DNA of 64,000 bases from Chryseobacterium lacus. GTDB taxonomy: Bacteria; Bacteroidota; Bacteroidia; Flavobacteriales; Weeksellaceae. Made by a program: the position numbers and the translations under genes. Under the pieces are notes generated by a model, which saw only the letters and a program-made list of their open reading frames with translations, did no database searches and was not told the DNA's origin. This document shows positions 9,092 to 45,831 of this stretch, one piece after another; the first letter of the stretch is position 1, and each line of letters starts with the position of its first letter. The stretch spans positions 1-64,000 of the forward strand of contig NZ_QPIE01000005.1 in assembly GCF_003336205.1 (NCBI RefSeq), read 5' to 3'.

Positions 9092-9149
9092 AAATTTTAT
9101 AAAATGTCTTTTATCGTCAATATAAAGATTACTTTTAAACCCTATCAAT

Positions 9150-10361
9150 ATGAAAGACCATAAAAATTCACAATCTGTAACTTTTTTTTATCCTAGCAAA
9201 GTTGTTGGTGGAGCTGAATTGTTATTTTATAGATTAGCAGTAGCATTATCAAAATTTGAACATTTGAATGTAAATTATATTGATTTCAAAGATGGGTTTA
9301 TAGCCAATGAAATTAGAAAAAGAAACAATCGTATTCATGTAATTATATTTAAGAAAATCAGTAAAATTCATCTTAAGGATACTGTATTAGTTTGTCCTTT
9401 GTCTTATTTATTTGAAGTTATTTTTCATTTGAAAGGAAATTTCAGGATTTTTCTTTGGTCTATACACCCCACTGCTTTGGAAAGTAGAATTATTGCTGTT
9501 CAGAGAAGATCACTCAGAAAGTATAAAAATTCAGAATTTGGAGAAGAATTAGATTTAATGATTAGGAAAGGAGGCCTATACTTTATGGATTTGCCTAATA
9601 GAGATTATCAACGTAATCTTTTTAATCTTAAAAATACTACTGAGGAATATCTTCCCATCTTTGTGCCGGAAACTAGCTTAAAAAAAAAATACAAACAAAT
9701 TGAGAATAATAAAATTAATGTTGGGTGGTTGGGAAGATTATGTACTGAAAAAACCAATGCTTTAATGAATGTTATTGAGCATTGTAATTTATATTTAATT
9801 AAATATCCGGAAATTCATATTACTTTGCATATCATCGGAGACGGAGATGATAAAAAACTTATTGAAAAAACAAGAAAGGAAGAAAGGTTAAATGTTATTT
9901 TGTTGGGAACGTTAACTGGTGCATCATTGTATAATTATCTTATAGAAAATATAGATTTAGTCTTTGCTATGGGAACTTCCATATTAGAATGCAGCAGTTT
10001 AAGTTTAGCAACTGTTGCAGTAGATTTTTCATATTCACCAATTCCAACCTCTAATAAATTTAAGTATGTTTATGAATTGCAGGGCTATTCTGTAGGAGAG
10101 AAATATGATCCATCTAATATTTACAAACATTCTTTTGATGATGTAATAAATGATATAATTTACGGGCAGGTCAAGAATCATGGCTCCCTCTGTTATGAAT
10201 ATTTCAGGAGGAATCATGATATAGAAGCTGTACAGACTAAGTTTATAGAACGATTAACAAAAAATAATCTTTGTTCCAATGATATACAGGAATCAAAGTT
10301 TGCAAAATTTAAATTAAGTGTTTCTTTAAGTAAATTAATTTCATATATTAAAAATGCGTAA
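9150..10361 (+). CDS. Glycosyltransferase, GT4-like
   Basis: A 403-residue GT-B type transferase. The N-terminus FFYPSKVVGGAELLFYRLA resembles the acceptor domain of GT4 enzymes, and the second domain begins with INVGWLGRLCTEKTNALMNVIE and contains a HIIGDGDDKKLIE motif. The usual ExxxxxxxE signature is weak (SILECSSLSLATVAVDF), so sugar and linkage cannot be predicted. It overlaps the next gene by 8 nt. Very AT-rich, as in serotype-specific transferases. Confidence 0.75.
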   Translation: MKDHKNSQSVTFFYPSKVVGGAELLFYRLAVALSKFEHLNVNYIDFKDGFIANEIRKRNNRIHVIIFKKISKIHLKDTVLVCPLSYLFEVIFHLKGNFRIFLWSIHPTALESRIIAVQRRSLRKYKNSEFGEELDLMIRKGGLYFMDLPNRDYQRNLFNLKNTTEEYLPIFVPETSLKKKYKQIENNKINVGWLGRLCTEKTNALMNVIEHCNLYLIKYPEIHITLHIIGDGDDKKLIEKTRKEERLNVILLGTLTGASLYNYLIENIDLVFAMGTSILECSSLSLATVAVDFSYSPIPTSNKFKYVYELQGYSVGEKYDPSNIYKHSFDDVINDIIYGQVKNHGSLCYEYFRRNHDIEAVQTKFIERLTKNNLCSNDIQESKFAKFKLSVSLSKLISYIKNA

Positions 10362-11472
10362 AAATCTCATTATTTTTGGAACAAGACCTGAGGCTATTAA
10401 AATGGCTCCTCTTATTAAAGAATTTAATAATCACCCTGATTTCCAAACTAAAGTTTGTGTAACAGCACAACATAGAGAAATGCTTGATCAAGTATTAGAT
10501 TTTTTTGATTTAAAACCTGATTATGATTTGAATCTTATGAGGCCTAATCAAAATCTTTATAGCTTAACAGCTGATATTATCACTCAGTTAAAAACAGTAC
10601 TTGAGGATTTTGTTCCTAATTTTGTATATGTTCATGGAGATACCACTACCTCAATGGCAGCTAGTATTGCAGCTTTCTATTCGGGTTCCAAGGTTTGTCA
10701 TATAGAAGCTGGTCTACGCACAAATAATAAATTGTCTCCTTTTCCAGAAGAAATTAATAGACAAATAACTAGTAGAATAGCAGATTATCATTTTGCTCCT
10801 ACAGAAATATCTAGACAAAATCTATTGAACGAAGGAATTTCTAAGGATGACATTATTATTACTGGAAATACAGTGATTGATGCATTACTCATTAGTAAAG
10901 AGAGGGTTGCTAACTTAAACAGCAAGGAAATTAATAGTCTTAAAAATTTACTGAACTCAGATAAAAAAACAATTCTTGTCACAGGTCATCGAAGGGAGAA
11001 TCATGGTGAAGGTTTTATCAATATCTGTGAAGCATTAAAACAAATAGCTCTTGAGTTTCCTGATGTGCAAATTGTTTATCCCGTGCATTTAAACCCGCAT
11101 GTGAGAAAACCAGTATATGAGATACTATCAGAGATAAAAAATATCTTTTTAATTTTGCCTTTATCTTATCCTGCATTTGTCTGGATGATGAAAGAATGCT
11201 ATATAATAATAACAGATTCAGGCGGAGTGCAAGAAGAAGCACCAAGTTTAGGAAAGCCGGTTTTAGTGTTAAGGGATACTACAGAAAGACCAGAAGCAGT
11301 ACAAGCAGGTACCGTAATTTTAGTAGGAACGGACAAAAAGAAGATCGTAAATGAAGTTACTGAATTACTTAAAAATAAAAAAAGGTATGCTAAAATGGCG
11401 GAATTACAAAATCCGTATGGAGATGGGAAGGCGTGTAAGAGAATTGTAAATTATATGCAACAAATTTTTTAA
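10354..11472 (+). CDS. wecB: UDP-GlcNAc 2-epimerase, non-hydrolysing
   Basis: Interconverts UDP-GlcNAc and UDP-ManNAc. Family motifs are in order: GTRPEAIKMAPLI (9-21), HGDTTTSMAA, HIEAGLRT, PFPEEINRQ, GHRREN, YPVHLNP, and TDSGGVQEEA near the C-terminus. Length 372 is standard. A separate CapG-type epimerase is at 20717; this copy has the general WecB motifs rather than those of the FucNAc branch, so it most likely supplies UDP-ManNAc, perhaps for oxidation by the dehydrogenase at 3890. Confidence 0.9.
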   Translation: MRKNLIIFGTRPEAIKMAPLIKEFNNHPDFQTKVCVTAQHREMLDQVLDFFDLKPDYDLNLMRPNQNLYSLTADIITQLKTVLEDFVPNFVYVHGDTTTSMAASIAAFYSGSKVCHIEAGLRTNNKLSPFPEEINRQITSRIADYHFAPTEISRQNLLNEGISKDDIIITGNTVIDALLISKERVANLNSKEINSLKNLLNSDKKTILVTGHRRENHGEGFINICEALKQIALEFPDVQIVYPVHLNPHVRKPVYEILSEIKNIFLILPLSYPAFVWMMKECYIIITDSGGVQEEAPSLGKPVLVLRDTTERPEAVQAGTVILVGTDKKKIVNEVTELLKNKKRYAKMAELQNPYGDGKACKRIVNYMQQIF

Positions 11473-11489
11473 ATTAATTTATTACAGAG

Positions 11490-12575
11490 ATGAAAATAAT
11501 TTCTATTTTCTGCAAAGGAAATATAACATATATTCCTCCGGTCTATAATTCAGCGTTAGCTTTGGTGAATGCTGGATATACTGTAAAATTATATGTTGGA
11601 GAGGTACATAATGATACAAAGGTGTTCTTAATGAATCATGGATACGATAGACTTGAAATTATTGACTTTCAACTTCATAAGGAGAATAAACTTAATAAAT
11701 GGAGGAAATTCCGAATAGTTGCCTTTCAAAATCTTGATTATAATACAACAGTCTGGTATGCTACTTTAGATACAGCAATTGCACTATATGGCAACCATAT
11801 GAAAAAGAATAAGTTTATCATTTCTGTTTTGGAACTTTACGATTCTGCAAGTTCTTACACCAGATTTTTTTTAAAAAAAATTCTCCCATTGGCTGCTAAA
11901 GTTGTTGTACCGGAATTTAACCGTGCAGCCATTCTAAAAACATGGTATCACTTGGCCGAATTGCCTGTGGTTTTACCAAACAAACCGTACATCATTGAGC
12001 TTCCGGATGAGAGCGAACATATTATTCAGCTCAAAGAGAAAATTACCCAGTTTGCTAAAGGCAGAAAAATTGTTCTTTACCAGGGTCTCATTACCAGCTA
12101 TCGTAATATTGAGAATGCGGTAAAAGCGGTAGAAATTCTAAAGGAAGATCATTGTGTCGTTCTTATGGGACCGGATTATAATTATGCTGATAAATTGATC
12201 GAAATGGGCGGAACTGATCAGGTTCTATACATTGGGAATGTCAATGCACCGAATCATCTACATATTACAAAGATGGCAGACATTGGTGTTGTCTCTTACA
12301 ATTATATTGATCTTAATAATATATTTTGCGCACCCAATAAGATTTGGGAGTTCGCAGCTTTTAGTAAGCCGATGTTAGGAAACGATATTCCTGGGCTTAA
12401 ATACACGATTGAATCTAACGATGCCGGTATCTGTGCAGATACGCAGAAACTAGAAAGTGTTAAAAATGCATTAGAAGTTATTTCCAGCGATTATGAAAAG
12501 TTTTCAGCTAACGCTTCCAAGTTATTCAATTCAGTTGATCTCAAGAAAATATCAATAAAAATAGTAAATCTATGA
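11490..12575 (+). CDS. Glycosyltransferase, GT4-like
   Basis: A 361-residue GT-B fold protein. The second domain has KIVLYQGLITSYRNIENAVKA, then VLMGPDYNYADKL and YIGNVNAPNHLHI, with the C-terminal pattern APNKIWEFAAFSKPMLGNDIP that corresponds to the nucleotide-sugar binding loop of GT4-type enzymes. The donor is unknown. It overlaps the following acyltransferase by 4 nt (ATGA). Confidence 0.78.
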   Translation: MKIISIFCKGNITYIPPVYNSALALVNAGYTVKLYVGEVHNDTKVFLMNHGYDRLEIIDFQLHKENKLNKWRKFRIVAFQNLDYNTTVWYATLDTAIALYGNHMKKNKFIISVLELYDSASSYTRFFLKKILPLAAKVVVPEFNRAAILKTWYHLAELPVVLPNKPYIIELPDESEHIIQLKEKITQFAKGRKIVLYQGLITSYRNIENAVKAVEILKEDHCVVLMGPDYNYADKLIEMGGTDQVLYIGNVNAPNHLHITKMADIGVVSYNYIDLNNIFCAPNKIWEFAAFSKPMLGNDIPGLKYTIESNDAGICADTQKLESVKNALEVISSDYEKFSANASKLFNSVDLKKISIKIVNL

Positions 12576-13102
12576 ATACGTTTTTGCTGTATCTAACAAA
12601 CCATTTTGTAAAATGCCTACCTTCATCAAGATTTTTCGGTTTAAGGAGGTTTCTATATTCCAAATGTGGTGTACAAATTGGCAAGAATACTAAACTTATG
12701 AATATTAGAATTTCAACAGCTGGTCAGATAATTATTGGAGATAATACCTTTATTGGCGAAAATACATATATTACAGGAGGTAGATGTACTATTGAAATTG
12801 GTAAAAATTGTGACATTTCTCATAATGTAACTATAACGTCTGGTACACATGAAATGGAGCCAGAGAACATCCGAATGGCAGGAAAAGATATCTGTAGGAA
12901 AATAAAAATAGATGATGGAGTCTGGATCGGGATTGGAAGTATTATTCTTCCTGGAGTTATTATAGGAAATAAAGCAGTAATCGCTGCTGGATCTGTCGTT
13001 ACAAAAGATGTTCCTCCATACAGTATAGTAGGTGGCAATCCAGCTAAAATTATTAAGAAATACAATACAGATGAAAAGAAATGGGAAAAGATTTTAAGAT
13101 AG
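12572..13102 (+). CDS. Hexapeptide-repeat acyltransferase, WcaF/maltose-acetyltransferase type
   Basis: A 176-residue left-handed beta-helix protein with repeats IGKNTK, IGDNTF, IGENTY, IGKNCD, IGIGSI, IGNKAV and the C-terminal VVTKDVPPYSIVGGNPAKII. It probably O-acetylates a sugar of the repeat unit. It overlaps the neighbours on both sides (4 nt upstream, 22 nt downstream), indicating co-translation with the glycosyltransferases. Confidence 0.82.
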   Translation: MNTFLLYLTNHFVKCLPSSRFFGLRRFLYSKCGVQIGKNTKLMNIRISTAGQIIIGDNTFIGENTYITGGRCTIEIGKNCDISHNVTITSGTHEMEPENIRMAGKDICRKIKIDDGVWIGIGSIILPGVIIGNKAVIAAGSVVTKDVPPYSIVGGNPAKIIKKYNTDEKKWEKILR

Positions 13103-14124
13103 TTTTTTTAATTATTGATTATGTTCCTCATCAGGTAAATTCAATTTCATCTTTCATTGAATTGTATGATGCGAACATACTTTCTTTTAATGTAGGGAGA
13201 TTTATAAAAAAAGTTCCCTTATTCAAAAATTTTACGAACTTCTATTACAAGGATTTAAAAAAAGAGGATATCTTAGAGAAAATTATAATTTTCCAACCTG
13301 ATATTGTGGTGACTGCAGGCTGGATGATTCCTGAATACAATTGGATCTGTAAACATTTAAAAAAAAGAAGTGCTATCCCGATTGTGGCAATGTCCGACAC
13401 GCCTTGGTACGGTACATGGAAGCAAAAAATAAACACCGCAATAGCTCCTTTTCATATAAAAAAAGCATTCACGCATTTGTGGGTCGCAGGAATCAGACAA
13501 TATGATTACGCTCGGAAATTGGGATTTACAAACCAGAAAATTCTTTTTAATTCGTTATCAGCAAATATAAACAACTTTTATAAAGTTTCAATTGTAGAAA
13601 AAAGAAAAGACTATCCTCGTAACTTTTTATTTATTGGAACTTTCTTACCAGTTAAGGGGTTAGAAAACCTTATAGCAGCTTGGTCATCTATAGAAGATAA
13701 AAAGGGGTGGAGTTTTACGGTTGTGGGTGAAGGTCTGTTGAGAGAAAAATTGTTGACTGCTGATTTCATTGTAAAAAATTTTATGTCTCAGGAAGAACTT
13801 GTTTTACAGCTACAGACTGCAGGTTGTTTTGTTCTTCCATCATTAAAAGAGACTTGGGCAATTGTAATACATGAGGCTGCCGCTGCGGGCCTGCCTATAT
13901 TATGTACAGAAACGTGCGGTGCAGCATCACATTTTGTTATTAGTAATTACAACGGTTACCATATTAAGGATAACTCAGTAATGGATTTGAAAATGAAGCT
14001 TGAAAAAATAATAAATATGGATAATACTGAACTTATTAAATTTAGTGAGCGAAGCAGAGGTTTATCGAACGTTATTAGCCCAGAGATCCATGTAGCAAGC
14101 TTAATGCAATTATTGAATGCTTAA
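13081..14124 (+). CDS. Glycosyltransferase, GT4
   Basis: A 347-residue GT-B transferase. The catalytic half shows FLFIGTFLPVKGLENLIAAW, FTVVGEGLLREKL, and the GT4 signature region VLPSLKETWAIVIHEAAAAG with the two spaced glutamates (E in KETW and in HEAA). Sugar specificity cannot be read. It starts within the acyltransferase gene and overlaps the polymerase start by 8 nt. Confidence 0.85.
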   Translation: MGKDFKIVFLIIDYVPHQVNSISSFIELYDANILSFNVGRFIKKVPLFKNFTNFYYKDLKKEDILEKIIIFQPDIVVTAGWMIPEYNWICKHLKKRSAIPIVAMSDTPWYGTWKQKINTAIAPFHIKKAFTHLWVAGIRQYDYARKLGFTNQKILFNSLSANINNFYKVSIVEKRKDYPRNFLFIGTFLPVKGLENLIAAWSSIEDKKGWSFTVVGEGLLREKLLTADFIVKNFMSQEELVLQLQTAGCFVLPSLKETWAIVIHEAAAAGLPILCTETCGAASHFVISNYNGYHIKDNSVMDLKMKLEKIINMDNTELIKFSERSRGLSNVISPEIHVASLMQLLNA

Positions 14125-15307
14125 GCTTAATCATCTAAATTTAGTTCAGTGTTTGGTGATTATGCTGTTTGCTTTAGCACCTTTTGTCATGTCCATTTCC
14201 AATTCAGAGATGACAGAGATGCTTACTATACGAACATTACCTCCAATCACTTTAACTATTGCCTCTGTAATGCGGTGGATTATATTTTGCATCTTAGCTG
14301 GAGTGTCTATTTTATACCTTAATACAAAGAAGGGGTTTAGGATCACTACACCTGTATATTTCATATCATTATTTTATTTTGTACAATTTTGTTATGCGTT
14401 GGTTGAAGGGGTTGATTATATTCGTTTCTTTTCTTTAAGCGTTTTAAGTTTGCTTCTTCCTCCAATTATAGGATATGCAATAATGCGAAATCGCAGTATT
14501 ACAAAATTTTTCATTTACTGTATTGCATTCTTTATTTTTCTTTCAGTTTTATTAAATGGTCATTTAGTGCTAAGTGGCCATAGGTTTTCGGGCTTTGTCA
14601 ATAATTCTAATGCTTATGGCATTTCTACGGTATTCTGGCTTGTAATTCTGTTTTTGGTAAATCAATCTCAGTCGGTTAATAAAAGATGGTTTTATATTAT
14701 AGGCGTTGCTATTTTTTTAACAATGCTGTTTGCTGGTTCTCGGAATGCGATGGTAGGAGTCTTGCTGATCTTCATTTTGGAGTACTTTAATAAGTTAAAA
14801 TCTTTCATACGTAGCATAGTTTTATTGATTTTACTATTTACTATTGTTTCTTATTTTTTAGATTTATCATTCGTTTTGGGGCGTTTTGAGAATTTGTCAG
14901 GAGCAGCAGCGGATTCAGGAAGAAAAGACATATGGAAGGGTGCCTATTTTGCAATAAATAATAATATGTGGTGGGGCAATGGAATGGATGCAAACGAAGT
15001 GATCGCTGGTACTGGGAACATGCACAACTGCTATATTCGGTTTGTATTGAATATGGGTATAGTTTTTACAGTGCTCTCCCTCCTTATGTATTTCTTATCC
15101 ATCATTACATCATTTACACAAAAACACAAGGTTCCGCTTATTTTGGCAGGGTATCTTGTGGTGTATGCTCTTATGAATCTGGGTGAGGACTATTTTGTCG
15201 GAATCGGTTCGTCAGCCTTTATATACATGTTGTTCATCTATGGATTTATTAATTATTATTTAACAAAGCAGGATGCTGTTACAAATAGTACCACGAAAGT
15301 GAAATAG
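14117..15307 (+). CDS. wzy: O-antigen/capsule polymerase, Wzy type
   Basis: A 396-residue protein with about ten or more hydrophobic segments and the O-antigen-ligase (Wzy_C-like) region: FAGSRNAMVGVLLIF followed by a loop with SGRKDIWKGAYFAI and a GNGMDANEVI...HNCYIRFVLNMG segment. The Arg and His residues in these loops are the usual Wzy/WaaL signature. Wzy proteins diverge greatly, so the assignment rests on topology, these loops and the position next to wzx and several transferases. Confidence 0.85.
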   Translation: MLKLNHLNLVQCLVIMLFALAPFVMSISNSEMTEMLTIRTLPPITLTIASVMRWIIFCILAGVSILYLNTKKGFRITTPVYFISLFYFVQFCYALVEGVDYIRFFSLSVLSLLLPPIIGYAIMRNRSITKFFIYCIAFFIFLSVLLNGHLVLSGHRFSGFVNNSNAYGISTVFWLVILFLVNQSQSVNKRWFYIIGVAIFLTMLFAGSRNAMVGVLLIFILEYFNKLKSFIRSIVLLILLFTIVSYFLDLSFVLGRFENLSGAAADSGRKDIWKGAYFAINNNMWWGNGMDANEVIAGTGNMHNCYIRFVLNMGIVFTVLSLLMYFLSIITSFTQKHKVPLILAGYLVVYALMNLGEDYFVGIGSSAFIYMLFIYGFINYYLTKQDAVTNSTTKVK

Positions 15308-15343
15308 TGCAAACATTTTTATAAATATATTTATTACAAACGT

Positions 15344-16471
15344 ATGAAAATAATTTTCCCCATAGGCGCATTCTTCCCTTGCCAGATCGGTGGCCAGGCC
15401 AGCGCAGTGTACTGGCATGTTTCGGCATTGGGTCAGAAAGATATTGCGTGTGATGTATTTACAACGATGTACGGAATAGACAAGAGTGAGGTCGTGAGTG
15501 ATCAAATTATTCCCACAGACTACGGTAGCGTTTACTATTCGAATAATACCTTCAGTTTAAAGAGTTTGCGTTCTGTTTATGAGCAGATAAAAAAAGCAGA
15601 CCTTATTCATCTAAGTGGAATGTTCAACATTCCCTCCACCATCAGCTTGCTGATGAGATCGCTTCTGTTTCCAAGAAAACCTGTGGTTTGCAGCGTGCAT
15701 GGCGAGCTGAGTCCAGATGCACTCCGCTTCAGCCGTCTGAAAAAACAGCCAACTCTCTTGCTGTACCGGTTACTTTACAAAAGAATTCTTTTTCATGCTA
15801 CGTCCGATAAAGAGAGAGAAGATATAACTGCATTTTTTAAAGGCAGTAAGGTGCTGCAGGTTCCCAATCTGATGCATCCTGCCGATTTTGTGGATAAACC
15901 CAAAAAAAAGCAGTTTTTATTTATGGGCAGAATTCATGAAATAAAAGCCCTTCATAAATTTATTAAAGCGTTGGCTTTAAGTAAATTGTTTAAGAATTCA
16001 GACTTTGTTTTCGATATTGCAGGTTCACACGAAGAAAGACATGAGGACTATTTTCAGGAATTGAAAAAACTTATTACTGACCTTAACCTGGATCACAAGG
16101 TGAAGTTTTCAGGACACATTACCGGAGATGAAAAAGAAAGCAAATATGCAGAATCTTGGTTCTTAGTGCTGCCCAGCGAAAGTGAAAATTTTGGCAATGT
16201 GGTGGTGGAAGCGCTGAATCAAAGGACGCCTGTTTTAGCTTCTTTGGGAACCCCCTGGTCCATTTTGGAAAGTTACCGCTGTGGCTTCCACACGTCCAAT
16301 GTTCCCGAAAATTTGGCTCTGTATATTGACCGCATGATCGCGATAGACAGTGCCGAATATGATGAGTACTGCCAGAATGCTGCAACCTTGGTAAATGAAA
16401 AATTTAATATAGAGACCCAGATATCTGTTTGGACCGAAACCTATAAACAGTTATATTACGCAAAACAGTAA
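15344..16471 (+). CDS. Glycosyltransferase, GT4
   Basis: A 375-residue GT4 protein. The acceptor domain has GGQASAVYWHVSALG and SVHGELSPDALRFSR; the donor domain has FLFMGRIHEIKALHKFIKAL, VKFSGHITGDEKESKYAES and LPSESENFGNVVVEAL with the paired glutamates of the family. It is the last gene of the AT-rich block; base composition rises across it toward capE, which starts 2 nt after its stop. Confidence 0.86.
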   Translation: MKIIFPIGAFFPCQIGGQASAVYWHVSALGQKDIACDVFTTMYGIDKSEVVSDQIIPTDYGSVYYSNNTFSLKSLRSVYEQIKKADLIHLSGMFNIPSTISLLMRSLLFPRKPVVCSVHGELSPDALRFSRLKKQPTLLLYRLLYKRILFHATSDKEREDITAFFKGSKVLQVPNLMHPADFVDKPKKKQFLFMGRIHEIKALHKFIKALALSKLFKNSDFVFDIAGSHEERHEDYFQELKKLITDLNLDHKVKFSGHITGDEKESKYAESWFLVLPSESENFGNVVVEALNQRTPVLASLGTPWSILESYRCGFHTSNVPENLALYIDRMIAIDSAEYDEYCQNAATLVNEKFNIETQISVWTETYKQLYYAKQ

Positions 16472-38452: not shown

Positions 38453-38788
38453 TTATATTCGGTTTTCAAGTTGTTCCATGCCTTCCGGTGTCACCATATC
38501 GTAATTCCATGCGGGATCGAAAGTAAGTTCAATTCGGGTTTCCAGTTCAGGGAATTCCTTTTCTAGCGCATTTTTCACACCCGTTTGTATGGCTTCTCCC
38601 ATGGGACAAAACCGCGTTGTGAGCGTCATCAAAACTTCGGTTTTATTTTCCTCATCATTGAATTCCACTTCATAAATTAATCCCAAATCCACCACATTCA
38701 CCATCAGTTCAGGATCCAATACTTCGTACAGTGCGTTTCGGGCTCTTTTTTTTCTTTCGTTATCTCGGTCGTTAGGATCTATTGTCAT
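38453..38788 (-). CDS. MIP18-type metal-sulfur cluster assembly factor
   Basis: A 111-residue DUF59/MIP18 protein related to PaaD and SufT, which help mature Fe-S proteins. Motifs: YEVLDPELMVNVVDLGLIYEV and TLTTRFCPMGEAIQ with the conserved Cys. The ATG at 38788 (MTIDPNDRD) is preferred over an upstream in-frame start. Only one nucleotide separates it from the membrane-protein gene, so it is the last gene of the Rrf2-linked operon; this supports an Fe-S repair theme. Confidence 0.87.
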   Translation of the reverse strand: MTIDPNDRDNERKKRARNALYEVLDPELMVNVVDLGLIYEVEFNDEENKTEVLMTLTTRFCPMGEAIQTGVKNALEKEFPELETRIELTFDPAWNYDMVTPEGMEQLENRI

Positions 38789-38789
38789 T

Positions 38790-40046
38790 TTATTTTGTTT
38801 TATGTAATAATAATTTGAACACATTCACACAATACAGCACTGAAACGGCCAGCCACAACAGCAAACCGATTCGGATGACCGGCAAATATTGCGCGATAAT
38901 TCCTGTGGCCAGAATCAAAAGTGCTGCAATGAAAATACGGAATTGCCAAATGGTTAGTTTTTCACTGTAAAGGTGTTTGGGCAACGGTACCTTCACTTTT
39001 CCGGAAAGATGTTTGTAATGTCCGTTCCAAATGATGAAAGGCAAAGTTTTAAAAGTTTTTCCTAAAATAATACTGGTGATCCATCCCATAAAAAGCAGCG
39101 TTCCATACAGCATCGTCCATTGATAACCTTGTGAATAATAAACCATCGGAATCATCAACAAGGAAATAATGAGACATAAGAAAGACAGAAAAGAATGCTT
39201 CATCAGCAACTCTATTTTCTTTCTCAACCGGTTTTTAAAAGCATCGTAAAGATACAAAAGCCAACTCAGAATTCCCGTGAAAACCAATGCCGCATACAGC
39301 AAACTTCTGTAGGAAATTCCGAAAAAATAGCCGTCCAGAAGGAAAAGGATTAATCCCAAATTTTGGAAAATAAAAGCGGATTTCAGTAGTTTTTCTTTCG
39401 TCGATTTTCCCAGAAGAAACATCGGAACCAGTTTGGTGCTTACGCCTGTTATCAACTGTAGAAACCATCCTCCCAATCCGGCGTGAGCATGAAGTTTCAG
39501 AATCTGCAAATGTTCTTTTTCAAAAAAAGGAAAGCTGAGATTGATGGCGAGTAATAAACCGATAACCACCGTGATCAGAAGCCATATTGCAGAGCTGGAA
39601 ATAAATAATTTTTGGATTGAATATTTGCTGCATATATTGCTTGTTTTTAGAACATTAGTAATAAACAGTAGTACAGAAAAAACGATCAAAATACCACCCG
39701 AAATCATTATCCACCCGGTATTGAGATTCCAGAAAGTGGTAGTGAGCAATGCAACTCCGGCAGTGAGTGTGTACCAACTGAAACTTGCCCATCTTTCACT
39801 GTACAGATCTTGTTCGCAAATGACCGGCAAAAGCTGATATGCTGCGCCGAAAATAATCATCGTTCCCCATCCCAGGGCAGCCAAATGTACGATTGTGAGC
39901 AAATGCGGACTGAAATAATGCCCGGTGAAAACCTCAGGATTCAGTACCATCACCGTGCAGAGAATCACGAAAACCACTGCTCCTGTTGCGTAAAACGGGA
40001 GTATGGCACTGTTGGCCGGAGCTTTTCCGATACTGATGTCTGCCAT
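38790..40046 (-). CDS. Twelve-helix membrane protein, haem-copper-oxidase subunit I-like
   Basis: A 418-residue integral membrane protein with about 12 hydrophobic segments. Histidine-bearing helices IVHLAALGWGTMIIFGAAYQ (H54) and LHAHAGLGGWFLQLITGV (two His near residue 183) look like haem or metal ligands as in the oxidase subunit I/NnrS-like superfamily, and TKLVPMFLLG and FKTLPFIIWNGHY are further conserved-looking loops. No Cu-site motif was identified and no partner subunit gene is present. Its stop touches the DUF1858/DUF2249 gene start without gap, so it belongs to the hemerythrin operon; a role in nitric oxide handling is inferred. Confidence 0.6.
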   Translation of the reverse strand: MADISIGKAPANSAILPFYATGAVVFVILCTVMVLNPEVFTGHYFSPHLLTIVHLAALGWGTMIIFGAAYQLLPVICEQDLYSERWASFSWYTLTAGVALLTTTFWNLNTGWIMISGGILIVFSVLLFITNVLKTSNICSKYSIQKLFISSSAIWLLITVVIGLLLAINLSFPFFEKEHLQILKLHAHAGLGGWFLQLITGVSTKLVPMFLLGKSTKEKLLKSAFIFQNLGLILFLLDGYFFGISYRSLLYAALVFTGILSWLLYLYDAFKNRLRKKIELLMKHSFLSFLCLIISLLMIPMVYYSQGYQWTMLYGTLLFMGWITSIILGKTFKTLPFIIWNGHYKHLSGKVKVPLPKHLYSEKLTIWQFRIFIAALLILATGIIAQYLPVIRIGLLLWLAVSVLYCVNVFKLLLHKTK

Positions 40047-40880
40047 TTATTTTTTGAATATCAGCATTTTGACATTTCCTTCGTCCACAGAATAAATATG
40101 AACCTCAAACTCCTTGTCGGCCAGTTCTTCCAAAAGATAAACAGGTACTCTTTTGTGATGAATGTACAACGCATGATCCTCCGGAAGATGTTCCAGTTCC
40201 GACAAGATGGCTTCCATCGGGCCGGGCATTTCTAAAGCTCTTACATCAATTTCGCACAGCTGTTCCGGAGAAAATCGGGAATAAATTTCGCCAAAACTTT
40301 CTTCATTGTGCATCAGTAGTTTTTCTTCTGATGATGTTGGCACAACTTTCTCCTGTTTTTCTTTCTTCAAAAAATAAGTGTAAAACAGTTTCTCACTTTT
40401 ATTTTCTGTGAAAGTATCTTCGGCTTTTTCCTGCTTCAAAAGATGAATTAAAGGGGTGGGAATAAAACTATTGATAATACAAAGGATTTTTCCCGAAGGT
40501 GTTTCTTTGAAACGGTGCAGAATTTCTTTCAAAGGATCCGCTCCGTTATCGATGATAGGGCGAACATCATAAAAATCAATTTCCGATTCTGTCGTTTTTT
40601 GTAACCATTCCGGTTTGTTTTCAACTGAAGCAATTTCCTTTTCAGAAATCGTTTCTTCAAAATGAAAATCGAGCGGCAACAATACCCTTATAAAATCTTC
40701 CACGGTTGCGCCTCCCATTTTTGCAGCTTCCGCGATCGTTACCCTTGACGCCATGATTTTCCTGAGAATCGGGTTTTTCAGCTTTTCCAGTGGTTTGGCA
40801 ATCGAAGCAATCGCATTGATGCTTTCAGGATTTTCTTTGATAAGCTCTGAAATTTTTGTTTTTTCAGTAATGGTTTTCAT
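40047..40880 (-). CDS. DUF1858-DUF2249 protein
   Basis: A 277-residue cytoplasmic protein. Residues about 1-67 form a DUF1858 domain (ISELIKENPESINAIASI...MASRVTIAEAAKMGG), and the C-terminal about 70 residues a DUF2249 domain (IDVRALEMPGPMEAILSELEHLPEDHALYIHH). A middle segment FYDVRPIIDNGADPLKEILHRF looks like a degenerate second DUF2249. These domains often travel with hemerythrins and RIC proteins. The start at 40880 overlaps the hemerythrin stop by one base (TAATG). Confidence 0.82.
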   Translation of the reverse strand: MKTITEKTKISELIKENPESINAIASIAKPLEKLKNPILRKIMASRVTIAEAAKMGGATVEDFIRVLLPLDFHFEETISEKEIASVENKPEWLQKTTESEIDFYDVRPIIDNGADPLKEILHRFKETPSGKILCIINSFIPTPLIHLLKQEKAEDTFTENKSEKLFYTYFLKKEKQEKVVPTSSEEKLLMHNEESFGEIYSRFSPEQLCEIDVRALEMPGPMEAILSELEHLPEDHALYIHHKRVPVYLLEELADKEFEVHIYSVDEGNVKMLIFKK

Positions 40881-41368
40881 TATGGTGTATTTTCTTTTGC
40901 CCAAAATTCATCATGATAATTTTCCTCAGCATTATGTTCTTCTCCGTGAAGCTGTCGTCCGATTTCTGCTAAATATTCTTCAGATAAATGCTCCTCAAGA
41001 TATGGAAAAAGCTCACGTTCCTCGTAACGCGTATGTTGATTTACCAGATCTGAAAGTTGAAGAATAGCCTCATTCACTTTTTCCTCATTCCGAAGACTGA
41101 TTTCATTTATTTTTGAAAGAATACGCTGATGTTCAGTCAGGGCTCTTGCCACCATTGGATCCGATGTTTCCACAAAAAGCAGTTCTTCTTCAGTTTTAAA
41201 ATGGGGCAGCATGTGATTTTTCCAAAACCAGTGAATATAATTTTTCATTCTGGCCGCAGAAACTTCTTTTTTTACTCCTTGTTTCAGTTTCCAGCAGAAC
41301 AATAATGTTGCGTGATGCTCGCGGGAAACAGGCATCAGGTTTTCATTTCGTTTGATGGGTTTGTTCAT
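40880..41368 (-). CDS. Hemerythrin-domain protein
   Basis: A 162-residue four-helix protein with hemerythrin-like iron ligands: SREHHATLLF, FWKNHMLPHFKTEEELLF, ALTEHQRIL and NQHTRYEERELFPYLEE. Expected to bind a di-iron centre that senses or scavenges O2 or NO. The ATG at 41368 (MNKPIKRNE) avoids an overlong N-terminus. It follows the RIC-like gene by 36 nt. Confidence 0.85.
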   Translation of the reverse strand: MNKPIKRNENLMPVSREHHATLLFCWKLKQGVKKEVSAARMKNYIHWFWKNHMLPHFKTEEELLFVETSDPMVARALTEHQRILSKINEISLRNEEKVNEAILQLSDLVNQHTRYEERELFPYLEEHLSEEYLAEIGRQLHGEEHNAEENYHDEFWAKENTP

Positions 41369-41404
41369 TTTCTTTTGTTTTTTAAATTCGACTCCAACCA
41401 ACTT

Positions 41405-42577
41405 TTACAGATTGGCGAGTTCGGCATCCAGTTTCACCGCTTTCGGGAAAAGAATGTTGTTTTCCAGATGTAAATGAGTCAAAAGATCATTTTCAAATTC
41501 CTGCATTTTGGAGAACAGATACTGATAAGAATTGCAGGCATTTTCAGGAATAGCGTAGTTGTTGGTTATTCTTCTGAAAAAACTCAGATCTTCTCCTGCA
41601 ATTTCGTGTTCTTTTTTCAAAATCAAAATAGGATCATTCAAAGTTCCGACTTTATAATTCGTTTCAAAGGAAGCATCATTTTTCTTAGCAATCGCTTGTC
41701 TGATCGCCGGAAACAGTGCATCTTCTTCTTTCACGATATGATCCAGCAAATCCTGAAGAAAATGATGGGTGCTGGTACTCAGTCGGTGTAGTTCCGGGTT
41801 GCTGTCTCCGTGATGTTCCGCTACTTTTTGCACGAGATCATTCAGCATTTCAGCGTTGTCTTTGATGTACTGATGATGGGTATTCAGGATATAATCCAGA
41901 AGAAAATTCAGTTCCCATTTGTCAGGATCCAAAGCAGGCGCAGTGATTTTTTTGCTTTCCTCCAATGCAGTTTTATGTGTTTCCCCGGTTTCAGAACTGG
42001 CTTCTTTTGCATCTCCACAACTGAAAATAATGCCTTTTTCTTTCAAAAGTTCCGCTTTTTTAATATCCTGAACTGCAATACCTGATTTTTGCTGGCTTTC
42101 AGAAGTAAGGTTTTTTTCAATTTTCACAACAAACCATTCGGGTCCTGTTTCCAGATATTCCCAAGTGAAAATATTGCCTCTTTCGGCGATCATTTCATAG
42201 TATAAAGGTTTAGGATCGTGGTCGTTTTCGATGATAAAACTATCGCCCGGATTCAGTTCGTCAAAATGTTTAAAAACCGTTGGATGTTTCAGTCTGGGTT
42301 CTATTTTTGTGACATCTACTTTTTTAATTTCTGAAACATTTTCCGCCGGATTTTTCGCTATCTGAACAAGATATAATTCCGGTCCTTTTTCCAAATATTC
42401 CCAGGTGAAAATCGGCCCTCTTTCTGCAATCAGTTCATAATACAGTGGTTTTGGATCGTGATCATTTTCGATGATAAAACTCTCGCCAGGTTCCAGTTCA
42501 TCGAAGTGTTTAAAAATTGTAGAATGTTTGTGACGTGGTTCAATTTGGGTGACATTAAGGGTTTGTACAGTTACCAT
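41405..42577 (-). CDS. Double DUF2249 / RIC-like hemerythrin protein
   Basis: A 390-residue protein. Residues 9-76 and 89-156 are two DUF2249 domains, nearly identical over the core FIIENDHDPKPLYYE and exactly 80 residues apart. A linker with FSCGDAKE (C187) follows where RIC/ScdA proteins have a Cys-Cys motif. The C-terminal half (about 225-385) is a hemerythrin-like RIC domain with NTHHQYIK, AEHHGD, STHHFLQDLLDHIVKEEDALFP, ILKKEHEIAGE and LTHLHLENNILFP. RIC proteins repair NO-damaged Fe-S clusters. First gene of a five-gene operon, 66 nt after rrf2. Confidence 0.85.
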   Translation of the reverse strand: MVTVQTLNVTQIEPRHKHSTIFKHFDELEPGESFIIENDHDPKPLYYELIAERGPIFTWEYLEKGPELYLVQIAKNPAENVSEIKKVDVTKIEPRLKHPTVFKHFDELNPGDSFIIENDHDPKPLYYEMIAERGNIFTWEYLETGPEWFVVKIEKNLTSESQQKSGIAVQDIKKAELLKEKGIIFSCGDAKEASSETGETHKTALEESKKITAPALDPDKWELNFLLDYILNTHHQYIKDNAEMLNDLVQKVAEHHGDSNPELHRLSTSTHHFLQDLLDHIVKEEDALFPAIRQAIAKKNDASFETNYKVGTLNDPILILKKEHEIAGEDLSFFRRITNNYAIPENACNSYQYLFSKMQEFENDLLTHLHLENNILFPKAVKLDAELANL

Positions 42578-42603
42578 TTTATTAAATTTTAGATATGAAT
42601 GTT

Positions 42604-42630
42604 TATAATAGGATGAATTTGTCTTAATTT
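42604..42630 (-). promoter_or_regulatory. Putative Rrf2 operator before the hemerythrin operon
   Basis: TCTTAATT (42622-42629) with an 8-nt spacer and a weaker partner arm (42606-42613, five of eight matches) repeats the arrangement seen before rrf2. It lies in the 66-nt gap upstream of the operon start. Confidence 0.4.
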
Positions 42631-42643
42631 AAAATAAAAAAAA

Positions 42644-43075
42644 TTATTCTCTTTTCAGGAGTAATTTTTCATTCTGAGGAGATTTGAACTGGTCTAAAGT
42701 CGTTTTTCCGTAAATCTCATACAATTTATTTCTGGCCTCTTTGTATTCATTGTGAATAGGGCAGGGATTATCCTCGGAGCAGGAAGCCAATCCAAGTCCA
42801 CAACCTTCGAACATTTTATTGCCGTCTATAGCACGAACGATATCGGCAAGCGAAATTTTGGCTTTTTCATTATTGATGTAAAACCCCCCGTATCTCCCCT
42901 TGGATGATTGCAAAAACCCTTGTCTGCTGAGATTTTGTAAAATCTTGGCAACGAAAAGCTCTGGCGATTGGATGTTCTCAGAAATTTGTTTGATGTTCAC
43001 CATATTTCCGTCCTTCGATTGCTGGGAAATATAGATCATAGCTCTGAGTGCGTATTCGCAGGTTTTAGACAACAT
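42644..43075 (-). CDS. Rrf2-family regulator, NsrR/IscR-like with three cysteines
   Basis: A 143-residue winged-helix regulator: MLSKTCEYALRAMIYIS, VNIKQISENIQSPELFVAKILQNL and SSKGRYGGFYI. C92, C99 and C105 (C-x6-C-x5-C) provide the ligands expected for an Fe-S cluster, close to the NsrR and IscR patterns. Given the RIC and hemerythrin genes downstream, NO or Fe-S status is the likely signal. Confidence 0.88.
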   Translation of the reverse strand: MLSKTCEYALRAMIYISQQSKDGNMVNIKQISENIQSPELFVAKILQNLSRQGFLQSSKGRYGGFYINNEKAKISLADIVRAIDGNKMFEGCGLGLASCSEDNPCPIHNEYKEARNKLYEIYGKTTLDQFKSPQNEKLLLKRE

Positions 43076-43091
43076 ATTTATAATTATAAAG

Positions 43092-43131
43092 CAAAGATAA
43101 ATATTTTAATTAAGATAAAATAGTCTTAATT
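43092..43131 (-). promoter_or_regulatory. rrf2 promoter and perfect 8-8-8 dyad
   Basis: Minus-strand -7 TATCTTTG (43099 to 43092) is 17 nt before the ATG. Just upstream, at the -33 position, AATTAAGA (43108-43115), eight bases and TCTTAATT (43124-43131) form a perfect inverted repeat, a good autoregulatory site. Confidence 0.6.
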
Positions 43132-43238: not shown

Positions 43239-45356
43239 ATGAAGAAAATTAAGAGGAAAGTGGCTTTTCTATTTCTATTGAAAAGCACAGTATTTATATA
43301 TTCACAAGTTGTTGTAACAGACAGTTTGCAGATCCCTGTTCAGGATACTTTAAAGATTCAACAGCAGCAAAACCGTATTTCCGAAGTGGAGGAAGTCGTT
43401 ATTTCCGGAACCATGAAACCGGTGAAACGGCTGGACAGTCCCGTTCCCGTGGAAGTGTACAGCCAAAATTATTTCAAAAAAAATCCAACGCCTTCTGTTT
43501 TTGATGCGTTTCAGACGGTTAACGGTGTTCGGCCTCAGTTGAACTGTAATATCTGCAATACGGGAGATATTCACATTAACGGATTGGAAGGGCCTTACAC
43601 CATGATTCTCATCGACGGAATGCCGATTGTAAGCTCGTTGGGAACTGTTTATGGATTGTCTGGAATTCCAAATTCAATGATTGAAAGAATTGAAATTGTA
43701 AAAGGGCCGGCTTCTTCTCTTTATGGAAGCGAAGCCGTTGGCGGACTCATCAATGTCATCACCAGAAAACCTCAAAATTCTCCGTTATTTTCTGCTGATT
43801 TCATATCTACTTCGTGGGGTGAATATAATTTGGATATTGGTTTTAAAAATAAACTGGGTAATAAAACCGATGTCTTGACCGGAATAAATTACTTTAACTT
43901 TCAGAATAAAATAGATGAAAATAAAGATGGTTTTACAGATGTGACGCTTCAGGACAGAATTTCGGTTTTTCAGAAGTGGAATTTTGAAAGGGCAGAACAG
44001 CGTGCTTTTAGTTTTGCGACAAGGTATTTATACGAAGACCGTTGGGGCGGAGATGTGAACTGGAATAGATCAGAACGTGGCGGAAACCGAATTTATGCCG
44101 AAAGCATTTACACGAACAGAGCGGAACTTTTCGGAAATTATCAGCTTCCGCTTCAGGAGAAAATTCATTTTGGGTTTTCAGCTGTTCATCATGCGCAGGA
44201 CAGTCGATATGGAACTACATCTTATATTGCAAAGCAGCAAATTGGTTTCGGGCAATTGCTTTGGGACAAAAAATTAGGAAATCACGACCTGCTCGCGGGC
44301 GCTTCTCTGCGATACACTTTTTATGATGATAATACTCCGGCCACTGCGAATATGCAGGCAGGAAATCAGCCGGAAAAGGTTTGGCTTCCCGGGTTTTTTG
44401 TTCAGGATGAAATTAAGATATTCGATCGGCATCAATTACTTCTTGGATTTCGGTATGATCATCATAACATTCACGGAAATATATTTACTCCAAGATTTGC
44501 GTATAAATTGCCATTGAGTGAAACTTCACTTTTCCGGCTGAATGCAGGAACCGGATTTCGGGTAGTGAACTTATTTACTGAAGATCACGCTGCGCTTACC
44601 GGAGCCAGAGATGTGAAAATTATTAATGATTTGAAACCTGAAAAATCTTATAATATTAATCTGAATTTTGTTAAAAAATTCTATATGGATTCCGGAAGTT
44701 ATTTCGGATTGGAAGCAACAGGTTTTTACACGTATTTTAGGAACAGAATAGTTCCGGATTATACTTCCGTTCCCAACAGTATTGTGTATGATAATATTCA
44801 CGGAAATGCGATCAGCAAAGGAATCAGCCTGAATGCGGACCTGGATTTCAGGAGCGGACTGAAACTGATTTTAGGAGCTACTTTCATGGAAAATACGATT
44901 ACTGAAAACGGAATCACAGAACAGCAAATGCTGACTGAAAAAGTAGCGGCAACTTGGGTGGTTTCGTATTCCATAAAACCGTTGAATCTCAATATCGATT
45001 ATACCGGAAATCTTTATGGGCCAATGCGTTTGCCTTTGGCAGGAGATTTAGACCCGAGGCCGCCGCTTTCGCCTTGGTGGAGCATTCAGAACATTCAGTT
45101 CACTTTCACAGGGTTCAGAAGTTTTGAACTGTATGGCGGTGTGAAAAACATCCTGAACTGGACGCCAGCAAAACGAATTCCTTTCTTGATTGCCAGAACC
45201 CATGATCCTTTTAATGAAAATGTAATTTTCGATCCCACAGGAAATGCAGTTTCTACGCCGGAAAATCCTTATGCGCTAACGTTTGATCCTTCTTATATGT
45301 ACGCACCCAATCAGGGAATTAGGGCTTTTTTGGGACTTCGGTTTAAATTAAATTAA
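43239..45356 (+). CDS. TonB-dependent receptor with CxxC plug motif
   Basis: A 705-residue outer-membrane transporter. A signal peptide (to about FIYSQ, residue 23), a TonB-box-like VEEVVISG (50-57), the plug (SVFDAFQTVNGVRPQ, LIDGMPIVSSLGTVYGLSGIP, IERIEIVKGPASSLYGSEAVGGLINVITR) and a barrel ending in phenylalanine-rich GLRFKLN are all present. The plug carries C103 and C106 (CNIC), unusual for siderophore receptors and suggesting a metal or thiol-reactive ligand. The next gene, 1 nt away, is a thioredoxin-like protein. Substrate is not established. Confidence 0.88.
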   Translation: MKKIKRKVAFLFLLKSTVFIYSQVVVTDSLQIPVQDTLKIQQQQNRISEVEEVVISGTMKPVKRLDSPVPVEVYSQNYFKKNPTPSVFDAFQTVNGVRPQLNCNICNTGDIHINGLEGPYTMILIDGMPIVSSLGTVYGLSGIPNSMIERIEIVKGPASSLYGSEAVGGLINVITRKPQNSPLFSADFISTSWGEYNLDIGFKNKLGNKTDVLTGINYFNFQNKIDENKDGFTDVTLQDRISVFQKWNFERAEQRAFSFATRYLYEDRWGGDVNWNRSERGGNRIYAESIYTNRAELFGNYQLPLQEKIHFGFSAVHHAQDSRYGTTSYIAKQQIGFGQLLWDKKLGNHDLLAGASLRYTFYDDNTPATANMQAGNQPEKVWLPGFFVQDEIKIFDRHQLLLGFRYDHHNIHGNIFTPRFAYKLPLSETSLFRLNAGTGFRVVNLFTEDHAALTGARDVKIINDLKPEKSYNINLNFVKKFYMDSGSYFGLEATGFYTYFRNRIVPDYTSVPNSIVYDNIHGNAISKGISLNADLDFRSGLKLILGATFMENTITENGITEQQMLTEKVAATWVVSYSIKPLNLNIDYTGNLYGPMRLPLAGDLDPRPPLSPWWSIQNIQFTFTGFRSFELYGGVKNILNWTPAKRIPFLIARTHDPFNENVIFDPTGNAVSTPENPYALTFDPSYMYAPNQGIRAFLGLRFKLN

Positions 45357-45357
45357 A

Positions 45358-45831
45358 ATGAGAAAATTGGGTTTCAGATTTATAATTTCCTCGATATTGT
45401 TTTTGCCTGTCTTTTTCTTCGGTCAATTACAACTTTATGATTTTAGTGAACGCCATGTTTTACAACTTGAAAAACCAAAAAATACCGTGATTTTCATTTA
45501 TACAGATTGGTGCCGATATTGCGAAAACATGAAACAAACTACCTTTAAACAAAAGGAAATTATCAACGTATTGAATCAGAATTTCTATACCATATTTCTG
45601 AATGCGGAAGAAAAGAAAAACATCTTTTTTTCTGGAAAATCATATCGGTTTCTGCCTTCCGGATTCCAGACCGAAGTTCATGAACTGGTGCTGTCATTAG
45701 GAACTGCCGATAACCCACTTTTTTATCCCGCGATTGTTATCATTAACGGAGATGATCAGGTGATTTTTAGGCAAAGTGGATTTCTTACTGCAGTGGAGTT
45801 TCGTGCGATTCTTTCTCATTTCGCAAAATAA
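45358..45831 (+). CDS. Exported thioredoxin-like protein
   Basis: A 157-residue protein with an N-terminal signal or anchor (LGFRFIISSILFLPVFFFG) and a thioredoxin fold: FIYTDWCRYCENMKQTTF with C52 and C55. The later part (PAIVIINGDDQVIFRQSGF) corresponds to the cis-Pro side. It starts 1 nt after the TonB-receptor stop, so a role in reducing or loading the CxxC of that receptor is plausible but inferred. Confidence 0.8.
   Translation: MRKLGFRFIISSILFLPVFFFGQLQLYDFSERHVLQLEKPKNTVIFIYTDWCRYCENMKQTTFKQKEIINVLNQNFYTIFLNAEEKKNIFFSGKSYRFLPSGFQTEVHELVLSLGTADNPLFYPAIVIINGDDQVIFRQSGFLTAVEFRAILSHFAK

Follow-up and report, generated by a model that had tools for sequence, protein, structure and literature searches.

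N2O-reducing Bacteroidota matter in soils and bioreactors, and to our knowledge little is known of how they survive nitric oxide (NO). Equally, we know of no function for the DUF2249 and DUF1858 proteins, which are induced by denitrification in several phyla. The locus described here encodes both domains beside an Rrf2-family regulator, an oxidase-shaped membrane protein and an Fe-S assembly factor, and raises the question of what such a set does. It lies in a 64,000-nucleotide stretch of Chryseobacterium lacus DNA (the window).

Operon organization and conservation

Gene calling on the window yielded a minus-strand operon of six genes (38453–43075), with intergenic gaps from Rrf2 to MIP18 of 66 and 36 nt, an overlap of 1 nt, 0 and 1 nt; the hemerythrin gene starts with ATG. 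The genes, spacings and domain assignments of a previous sequence-only reading all hold in these calls and in Pfam, and the set is a true operon. The features are as follows.

43108..43131, unstranded: predicted palindromic operator AATTAAGATAAAATAGTCTTAATT (24 bp), 34 nt upstream of the Rrf2 start
42644..43075, minus: Rrf2-family regulator, NsrR-like, 143 aa (Pfam PF02082, 2.8e-29; C92/C99/C105)
42606..42629, minus-strand AATTAAGACAAATTCATCCTATTA: predicted second, weaker operator copy, upstream of the RIC-led operon
41405..42577, minus: RIC-like protein, 390 aa, a di-iron protein whose N-terminal part holds two DUF2249 domains of DrpA type (Pfam, DrpA identity, ligands)
40880..41368, minus: stand-alone hemerythrin HHE protein (PF01814, 8.6e-12)
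40047..40880, minus: DrpB-type protein, DUF1858 plus two DUF2249, 277 aa (Pfam, full-length match to Thermus DrpB)
38790..40046, minus: 12-TM heme-copper-oxidase homolog, 418 aa (fold match; H54/H186 in all phyla, H188 in the Bacteroidota set)
38453..38788, minus: MIP18/DUF59 (SufT/PaaD-like) Fe-S assembly factor, 111 aa (PF01883, 1.3e-12; Cys61)

Gene order, on whose conservation in relatives the sequence-only reading had staked its proposal, is retained beyond what chance would give. The DUF1858/DUF2249 gene lies directly upstream of the membrane-protein gene in 63 of 65 relatives and the MIP18 gene directly downstream in 63 of 65, and this triad is kept in 63/65 loci. All six families occur together at a single locus in ten of the 65. 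Rrf2 is linked in only 32/65 loci and the stand-alone hemerythrin in only 15/65, so that neither Rrf2 regulation nor the HHE protein is a universal part of the module.

Regulator and predicted operator

The Rrf2 protein scored above the TIGR00738 cut-off and carries the three cysteines expected of NsrR, with C92, C99 and C105 conserved in at least 90% of 33 sequences; it fell below the NsrR equivalog NF008240 (51.6 bits against a cut-off of 182). Judged from the sequence, these cysteines probably hold an Fe-S cluster. The palindrome upstream of its gene, conserved in relatives, is one of two sites in the genome with no more than three mismatches to TTAAGACAAATTTGTCTTAA. The 24-bp palindrome also precedes the canonical scdA/ytfE gene, identified by Pfam and unlinked in the same genome, and scdA in three relatives, so that an operator stands before both RIC/scdA and the regulator's own gene, as in NsrR systems. 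The second copy deviates from TTAAGA-N8-TCTTAA at two positions and recurs at the equivalent position in loci L003, L006, L008, L011 and L015.

Only the full palindrome was informative for operator inference; the loose pattern TTAAGA-N8-TCTTAA with two mismatches gave 147 genome matches against 504 for the control and was uninformative. Several full-palindrome matches in relatives, inside genes or before unrelated genes, were taken as chance. The operon thus appears to belong to an NsrR-like regulon together with RIC, with NO as the presumed signal.

RIC-like, DrpB-type and MIP18 proteins

Pfam assigned two DUF2249 domains and a Hemerythrin domain (1.7e-46 and 2.8e-16) to the RIC-like protein, each DUF2249 being 54–58% identical to Thermus DrpA. 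Its di-iron ligands (H235, H256, H280, E284, H324, H368, E372) are conserved, with spacings of 21, 24, 4 and 44, 4 that agree with those of YtfE. The protein is below the RIC equivalog TIGR03652 (163 bits vs 204.7) and the DfCCgG motif of ScdA_N has its CC replaced by SC; the canonical RIC of the genome sits at L081.

The DrpB-type protein (DUF1858, 2.2e-12; two DUF2249 stretches, 2.9e-21) has the domain order of Thermus DrpB and matches it along its full length (E 5e-28, 28%), placing it in this group. Foldseek searches with its model (pLDDT 89.6) were uninformative except for DUF1858 (2fi0). In Thermus, the triad adjoins narGHJI and drpAB, and the island runs on to homologs of the membrane protein (E 1e-23) and MIP18 (E 4e-15). 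The available part of the Thermus study describes drpAB as bicistronic and does not treat the genes downstream (PMC6282519). Elsewhere, DUF2249 genes of H. mediterranei rise by 3–9 log2 units under denitrification (PMC11218638), and the Bradyrhizobium DUF1858 gene bsl7085 depends strongly on NnrR (PMC6710368).

The MIP18 protein exceeded the PF01883 gathering score (FeS_assembly_P; 48.2 vs 23.5 bits, E 1.3e-12), retains the conserved C61 and lies under the SufT and PaaD equivalog cut-offs. SufT–DUF1858 fusions exist (PMC4982691), and the theme of Fe-S assembly and repair proposed earlier is supported.

Fold and histidines of the membrane protein

As a single protein, the membrane protein matched Pfam COX1 weakly (3e-7, 30.1 bits, cut-off 34.8), and a genome search in which neighbouring pieces were joined gave 40.6 bits. 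Its AlphaFold model (pLDDT 91) bore out the 12 helices previously predicted and superimposed on CcoN (8smr_E; VIA Z 36.1, rmsd 2.9, 389/418 residues) and on cNOR (4xyd_A; Z 33.6), which identifies the 12-helix subunit I fold of the heme-copper oxidase superfamily. Sequence search of solved structures returned nothing useful, and Pfam gave no NnrS (PF05940) match, whereas a true NnrS from S. meliloti scores 8.4e-114 on that family. Oxidase-like membrane proteins beside DUF2249/DUF1858 genes are annotated as hypothetical.

The six histidines of catalytic subunits (TMH2, TMH6, the TMH7 HH and the TMH10 HxH) are not all present: no TMH7 copper histidines, TMH10 heme pair or FeB/CuB ligands were found in this protein. 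Its earlier description as His-rich holds only in part: of its 11 histidines, just H54, H186 and H188 never vary within the Bacteroidota set, and only the first two keep this invariance in Thermus, rhizobia, Campylobacterota and haloarchaea, H188 being missing from the homologs of other phyla. Profile comparison by hhalign was significant against CcoN (2.1e-6), the helix-2 histidine region being homologous to CcoN helices 9–12; it gave E 0.014 against Bacteroidota qNOR and likewise no clear result against a further family of oxidase-like proteins encoded nearby. Units 2 and 3 each resemble only unit 1, with no profile similarity between them (E 0.19); a 'proline at +22' ruler was valid in CcoN and failed in qNOR and cNOR.

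The internal three-fold repeat suggests that H54 and H186 form one bis-histidine heme site, at an interface that oxidases and NO reductases appear to leave empty. A Haloprofundus homolog also has both histidines of the normal oxidase low-spin site, which fits the pairing rule used here. The best reading is an NnrS-like heme protein outside the NnrS family, with heme occupancy predicted.

Association with denitrification genes

The association with denitrification was borne out by both co-occurrence and neighbourhood. Of the 41 genomes that encode the membrane protein, 38 contain NosZ, NirK or qNOR, against 66 of the 254 that do not encode it (Fisher p 1.4e-16, uncorrected for relatedness), and the triad is found with nosZ, norB, nirK or nar genes, the range of such loci reaching from Bacteroidota to Thermus, rhizobia and haloarchaea. 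In Sinorhizobium and Rhizobium, the triad and its DUF2249 partners adjoin nor, nirK and NnrS genes, and in some relatives qNOR adjoins the module. It may also be that the module is merely carried along as denitrification genes move in a group. The window's own genome contains nirK, norCB and nosZ, and the membrane protein is therefore not its sole NO reductase candidate; the idea of a missing NOR (nirK and nosZ with seemingly no qNOR) was dropped when the COX1 search found the cNOR norCB operon.

Proposed role and alternative explanations

We give about even odds to a reading in which the operon responds to NO and serves denitrifying metabolism as an accessory system, combining DrpA, DrpB and MIP18 functions with RIC and a heme protein; more broadly, the module probably gives general help to bacteria that produce or encounter NO. 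The Rrf2 repressor would occupy the 24-bp palindrome in front of its own gene, the operon and canonical scdA/ytfE, and NO damage to its cluster would derepress all three targets. The induced RIC-type di-iron, DrpA-type, DrpB-type and MIP18 proteins would then act on metal centres that are damaged or incomplete. The oxidase-shaped protein, whose conserved cytosolic loop P336-F337-W340...P354 may be the docking face, would bring these proteins together at the membrane. Its single b-type heme, held by H54 of helix 2 and H186 of helix 6 close to the periplasmic side, might bind NO or carry electrons, without NOR-style NO reduction.

More tentatively, and as a possibility that we hold well below even, the module may exist as a so far unrecognised unit across bacteria and archaea. 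In this view, the only bis-histidine heme of the oxidase-fold protein would lie at EU1/EU2, the third inter-unit site, which is normally empty, and the protein would anchor DrpA, DrpB and MIP18 at the membrane as a station for maturing or repairing metal centres, both of denitrification enzymes and of Fe-S enzymes, under NO. If true, the Thermus DrpA/DrpB 'nitrate sensor' would be reinterpreted as part of a maturation system.

An alternative that we consider unlikely, if still the strongest of the rivals, casts the membrane protein as an NO sink resembling NnrS. Its heme would bind or scavenge NO in the membrane and so lower free NO, the protein would not be directly involved in maturation, and the other genes would repair damage independently. 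The oxidase-like fold with a single conserved histidine pair and a regulatory company equal to that of NnrS in Shewanella (NsrR with dnrN and nnrS) are consistent with it, and NnrS occurs in only 1/295 Bacteroidia genomes and is absent from this one, so that the slot may be filled by the membrane protein. However, true NnrS adjoins the membrane protein in Sinorhizobium and Rhizobium, which argues that the two are not simply exchangeable, and the membrane protein is tied more tightly to MIP18 and DrpB than to RIC. Somewhat less probable still is signal transduction, in which the membrane protein would act as receptor and DrpA/DrpB would detect nitrate or NO and thereby govern transcription, with the enzyme defects as a secondary effect. 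In Thermus, drpAB deletion makes nar induction nitrate-independent, and the authors of that study interpret drpAB as nitrate sensors (PMC6282519); the conserved cytosolic loop of a membrane protein that holds heme would also suit a receptor. Yet the triad conserves MIP18 and neither a kinase nor a DNA-binding partner, an Rrf2 regulator is already present in the window, and a pure sensor leaves unexplained why the double mutants make NarG protein with little activity (PMC6282519).

The sequence-only reading had suggested that NO may be removed at a haem centre; that the membrane protein is a catalytic NO reductase of a new type is the most doubtful reading of all. Although the fold is close to cbb3 oxidase and cNOR, and H188 in the Bacteroidota set, which by the repeat rule would face Y314, could mark a second heme site, H188 is absent from homologs of other phyla, the TMH7 and TMH10 histidine pairs and FeB/CuB ligands are absent, the genome has a separate norCB, and some relatives have qNOR adjoining the module. 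The removal step in the manner of an NO reductase is thus not supported, and the remark that this is not a textbook NO reductase system was right; the NO-linked regulon, seen in the predicted operator common to the operon and canonical scdA, the denitrification link, the Fe-S theme and the gene order are supported. For the DUF2249 and DUF1858 proteins and the oxidase-like membrane proteins beside them, the ties to MIP18, to the RIC/scdA regulon and to one predicted heme site give a concrete, testable role and suggest a second reading of the published Thermus phenotype.

Comparison with known systems

In Shewanella, the predicted targets of NsrR include dnrN (RIC) and nnrS (PMC1274295). The window set resembles NsrR regulons of Shewanella and enterobacteria (dnrN/ytfE and nnrS) in its three-cysteine Rrf2-family regulator, palindromic operator, RIC target and oxidase-like heme membrane protein as co-target. 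It differs in its operator (AATTAAGACAAATTTGTCTTAATT vs gATGyAT-N5-ATrCATc), in a regulator that is not an NsrR equivalog and a membrane protein that is not Pfam NnrS, and in the addition of DrpB and MIP18. The membrane protein shares its fold with CcoN of cbb3 oxidase and with NorB, but lacks their catalytic copper or iron site and TMH10 heme ligands.

Two components are already in the literature: DrpA/DrpB of Thermus and, by citation, DUF2249-linked heme-copper oxidase homologs. Thermus thermophilus shares the DUF1858-DUF2249-DUF2249 architecture of DrpB along its full length and has membrane-protein and MIP18 homologs in the same island, whereas in the window a RIC di-iron protein carries two fused DrpA-type domains and an Rrf2 regulator governs the set. 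The heme-copper oxidase homology proteins of Pei et al. (2014) reportedly have the oxidase fold with three homologous four-helix units, two conserved histidines and DUF2249 neighbours, and as far as that description goes the window protein resembles them in all of these respects; the placement of the histidine pair and the triad with MIP18 and DrpB are worked out here.

Operon layout and conservation of the locus

The sequence-only reading had placed six genes in a compact operon; their strand, order and spacing are borne out on the window sequence, and domain searches returned the domains assigned to each.

38453-43075, minus strand: rrf2, RIC-like gene (two DUF2249), hemerythrin (HHE) gene, DUF1858/DUF2249 gene, membrane-protein gene, MIP18 gene
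41368, minus strand: hemerythrin ATG, the start that yields the 36-nt gap
38790-40046, minus strand: gene for the 418-aa oxidase-like membrane protein
38788, minus strand: MIP18 start codon

The six genes are probably co-transcribed. The host genome (2.38 Mb) belongs to the Kaistella/Chryseobacterium group, and its membrane protein is 97% identical to that of a metagenome-assembled genome (L003). Elsewhere in the window, at 8001-16000, GC drops to 0.31-0.35 against ~0.39-0.42 around it, along a run of same-strand genes of ~340-500 aa that is possibly an acquired cluster.

Scanning species with one genome each, we recovered 65 loci, from Bacteroidota and from genomes of the Chlorobiota/Ignavibacteria type. 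The DUF1858/DUF2249 gene lies immediately 5' of the membrane-protein gene in 63 and MIP18 immediately 3' in 63, the exceptions including a contig end (L016), whereas RIC is nearby in 55, Rrf2 in 32 and a stand-alone hemerythrin in 15. The complete set of six is found in 10/65 loci. The invariant core is therefore the triad of the membrane-protein gene and its two immediate neighbours, with RIC as a frequent partner and the regulator and HHE protein as lineage-specific parts. In two Chryseobacterium-group species, a putative type II NADH dehydrogenase gene, assigned by sequence, lies between RIC and hemerythrin (L010:3180-4451 and L012:3286-4557).

Regulation

The palindrome AATTAAGATAAAATAGTCTTAATT is located upstream of rrf2, with a weaker copy upstream of the RIC operon; twelve sites give the putative operator consensus AATTAAGACAAATTTGTCTTAATT. 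Searching with its 20-bp core at ≤3 mismatches, we found two sites in the host genome, one before rrf2 and the other on contig C12, 46 bp before a canonical ScdA/YtfE gene with a ScdA_N domain. Thirteen related genomes yielded 21 further sites, compared with 6 for the reversed control; of the 23 sites in relatives and host, 12 precede rrf2, scdA or the RIC operon by ≤60 bp, scdA having such a site in three relatives. Together with an Rrf2 protein retaining C92, C99 and C105, the predicted operators are arranged as in an NsrR-type regulon (PMC1274295), although this Rrf2 scores below the NsrR equivalog cut-off and the operator differs from that of NsrR. Nitric oxide would be the signal that induces the operon.

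Two side observations concern other genes near the palindrome. In Kaistella palustris (L014 genome), an azurin-like gene (L101:4552-5133) has the palindrome 66 bp upstream and is a possible regulon member. Diverging from rrf2, a TonB-dependent receptor and a thioredoxin-like gene (43239-45831) have the operator in the common intergenic region at a distance of ~110 bp; in most relatives the two genes are not conserved at this position.

Fold and predicted heme site of the membrane protein

The AlphaFold model built with 60 homologs has 12 helices (pLDDT 91.3, pTM 0.90) and matches CcoN of cbb3 oxidase (Z 36.1, rmsd 2.9 over 389 residues) and cNOR (Z 33.6). At the sequence level, a four-helix unit is repeated three times (unit 1 versus unit 2, E 1.6e-6; versus unit 3, E 1.8e-9), and CcoN helices 9-12 match unit 1 at E 2.1e-6. 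The key helix of each unit ends in a proline, and counting back 22 and 20 residues from this proline gives the two positions at which CcoN has its heme histidines. In oxidases, unit 3 (second position) and unit 1 (first position) together bind the low-spin heme, and the high-spin heme is attached through unit 3 (first position). Across 66 compared sequences (60 from Bacteroidota/Chlorobiota, six from four other phyla), H54 (unit 1, second position) and H186 (unit 2, first position) are always histidine, and no other histidine is invariant. This pair is the oxidase low-spin pair rotated by one unit, which points to a bis-His heme held between units 1 and 2. Haloprofundus fits the same pairing rule: its homolog has two further histidines, one in unit 1 (first position) and one in unit 3 (second position), where oxidases normally hold their low-spin heme. 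In the Bacteroidota set, H188 and Y314 could form a further site.

Conserved charged residues (R273, R275, K276 and the 347-361 loop) and the positive-inside rule suggest that both termini and the P336-F337-W340...P354 loop face the cytosol, with the heme near the periplasmic side; the cytosolic loop may serve as a docking face. A true NO reductase is the least likely role for this protein: its fold is shared with cNOR, but the TMH7 copper histidines and the TMH10 pair are missing, and the host has an ordinary NO reductase, norCB.

Denitrification context

The membrane protein occurs in 41 of 295 genomes of the class. NosZ accompanies it in 35/41 genomes versus 60/254 lacking it (p 3.5e-14), NirK in 9/41 versus 11/254, qNOR in 6/41 versus 6/254, and at least one of the three in 38/41 versus 66/254 (p 1.4e-16), p values that ignore relatedness. 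In Sphingobacteria and relatives, the flanks carry nosZ, nosD, nosF, nosY, nosL, qNOR and anaerobic ribonucleotide reductase, names assigned by reading the sequences. The host itself encodes nirK and nosZ besides norCB, and so can probably make N2 from nitrite.

Another oxidase-like protein of the host, ~405 aa long and matching no Pfam family, is encoded on contig C26 (L074:1521-2738), adjoining the nos cluster and the gene of a Crp-type regulator. Its relatives at L032, L034, L037, L047, L048, L050 and L052 share HSH in the first unit and single histidines in later units.

Homologs in other phyla and comparison with known systems

Distant homologs of the membrane protein occur in 112 plasmid records (tblastn). 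Sinorhizobium pSymA and Rhizobium phaseoli have the order norD - hemN - DUF2249 - membrane protein - DUF2249x2 - MIP18 - NnrS - nirK, and Aliarcobacter has DUF2249-like - membrane protein - MIP18; in Haloprofundus the gene lies near nirK and three DUF2249 genes. The Thermus order is narGHJI - transporter - DrpA - DrpB - 4-TM protein - protoglobin - membrane protein - MIP18, retained without nar in T. brockianus. All these membrane-protein homologs are annotated as hypothetical. In the Thermus DrpB-protoglobin interval, an apparently 4-TM protein of 144 aa (L106:6539-6973) carries HVH at both heme positions, making it a one-unit oxidase homolog next to the three-unit membrane protein.

Thermus DrpB matches the DUF1858/DUF2249 protein at E 5e-28, the membrane proteins match at E 1e-23 and the MIP18 proteins at E 4e-15, and both DUF2249 domains of the RIC-like protein share 54-58% identity with DrpA. 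The Thermus study found that drpAB deletion uncoupled nar expression from nitrate and, as a separate result, left NarG present with low activity (PMC6282519). Uncoupled expression would accord with the rival view of the system as a sensor, low activity of a protein still present with action on enzyme maturation. The membrane protein could instead be an NnrS-like NO sink, which the oxidase-like fold with its conserved histidine pair would suit, but the rhizobial clusters encode NnrS as well. We favour work on metal centres by the operon proteins, because MIP18 serves Fe-S maturation in other systems, with SufT-DUF1858 fusions on record (PMC4982691), RIC acts in repair (PMC9268430) and the Thermus phenotype points the same way.

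A literature search covering few subscription journals found no paper that combines these parts or names the membrane family. Pei et al. 2014, as related in a citing paper, reportedly described DUF2249-linked oxidase homologs. Singly, DrpA/DrpB, RIC, MIP18 and NsrR-like regulation are already known.
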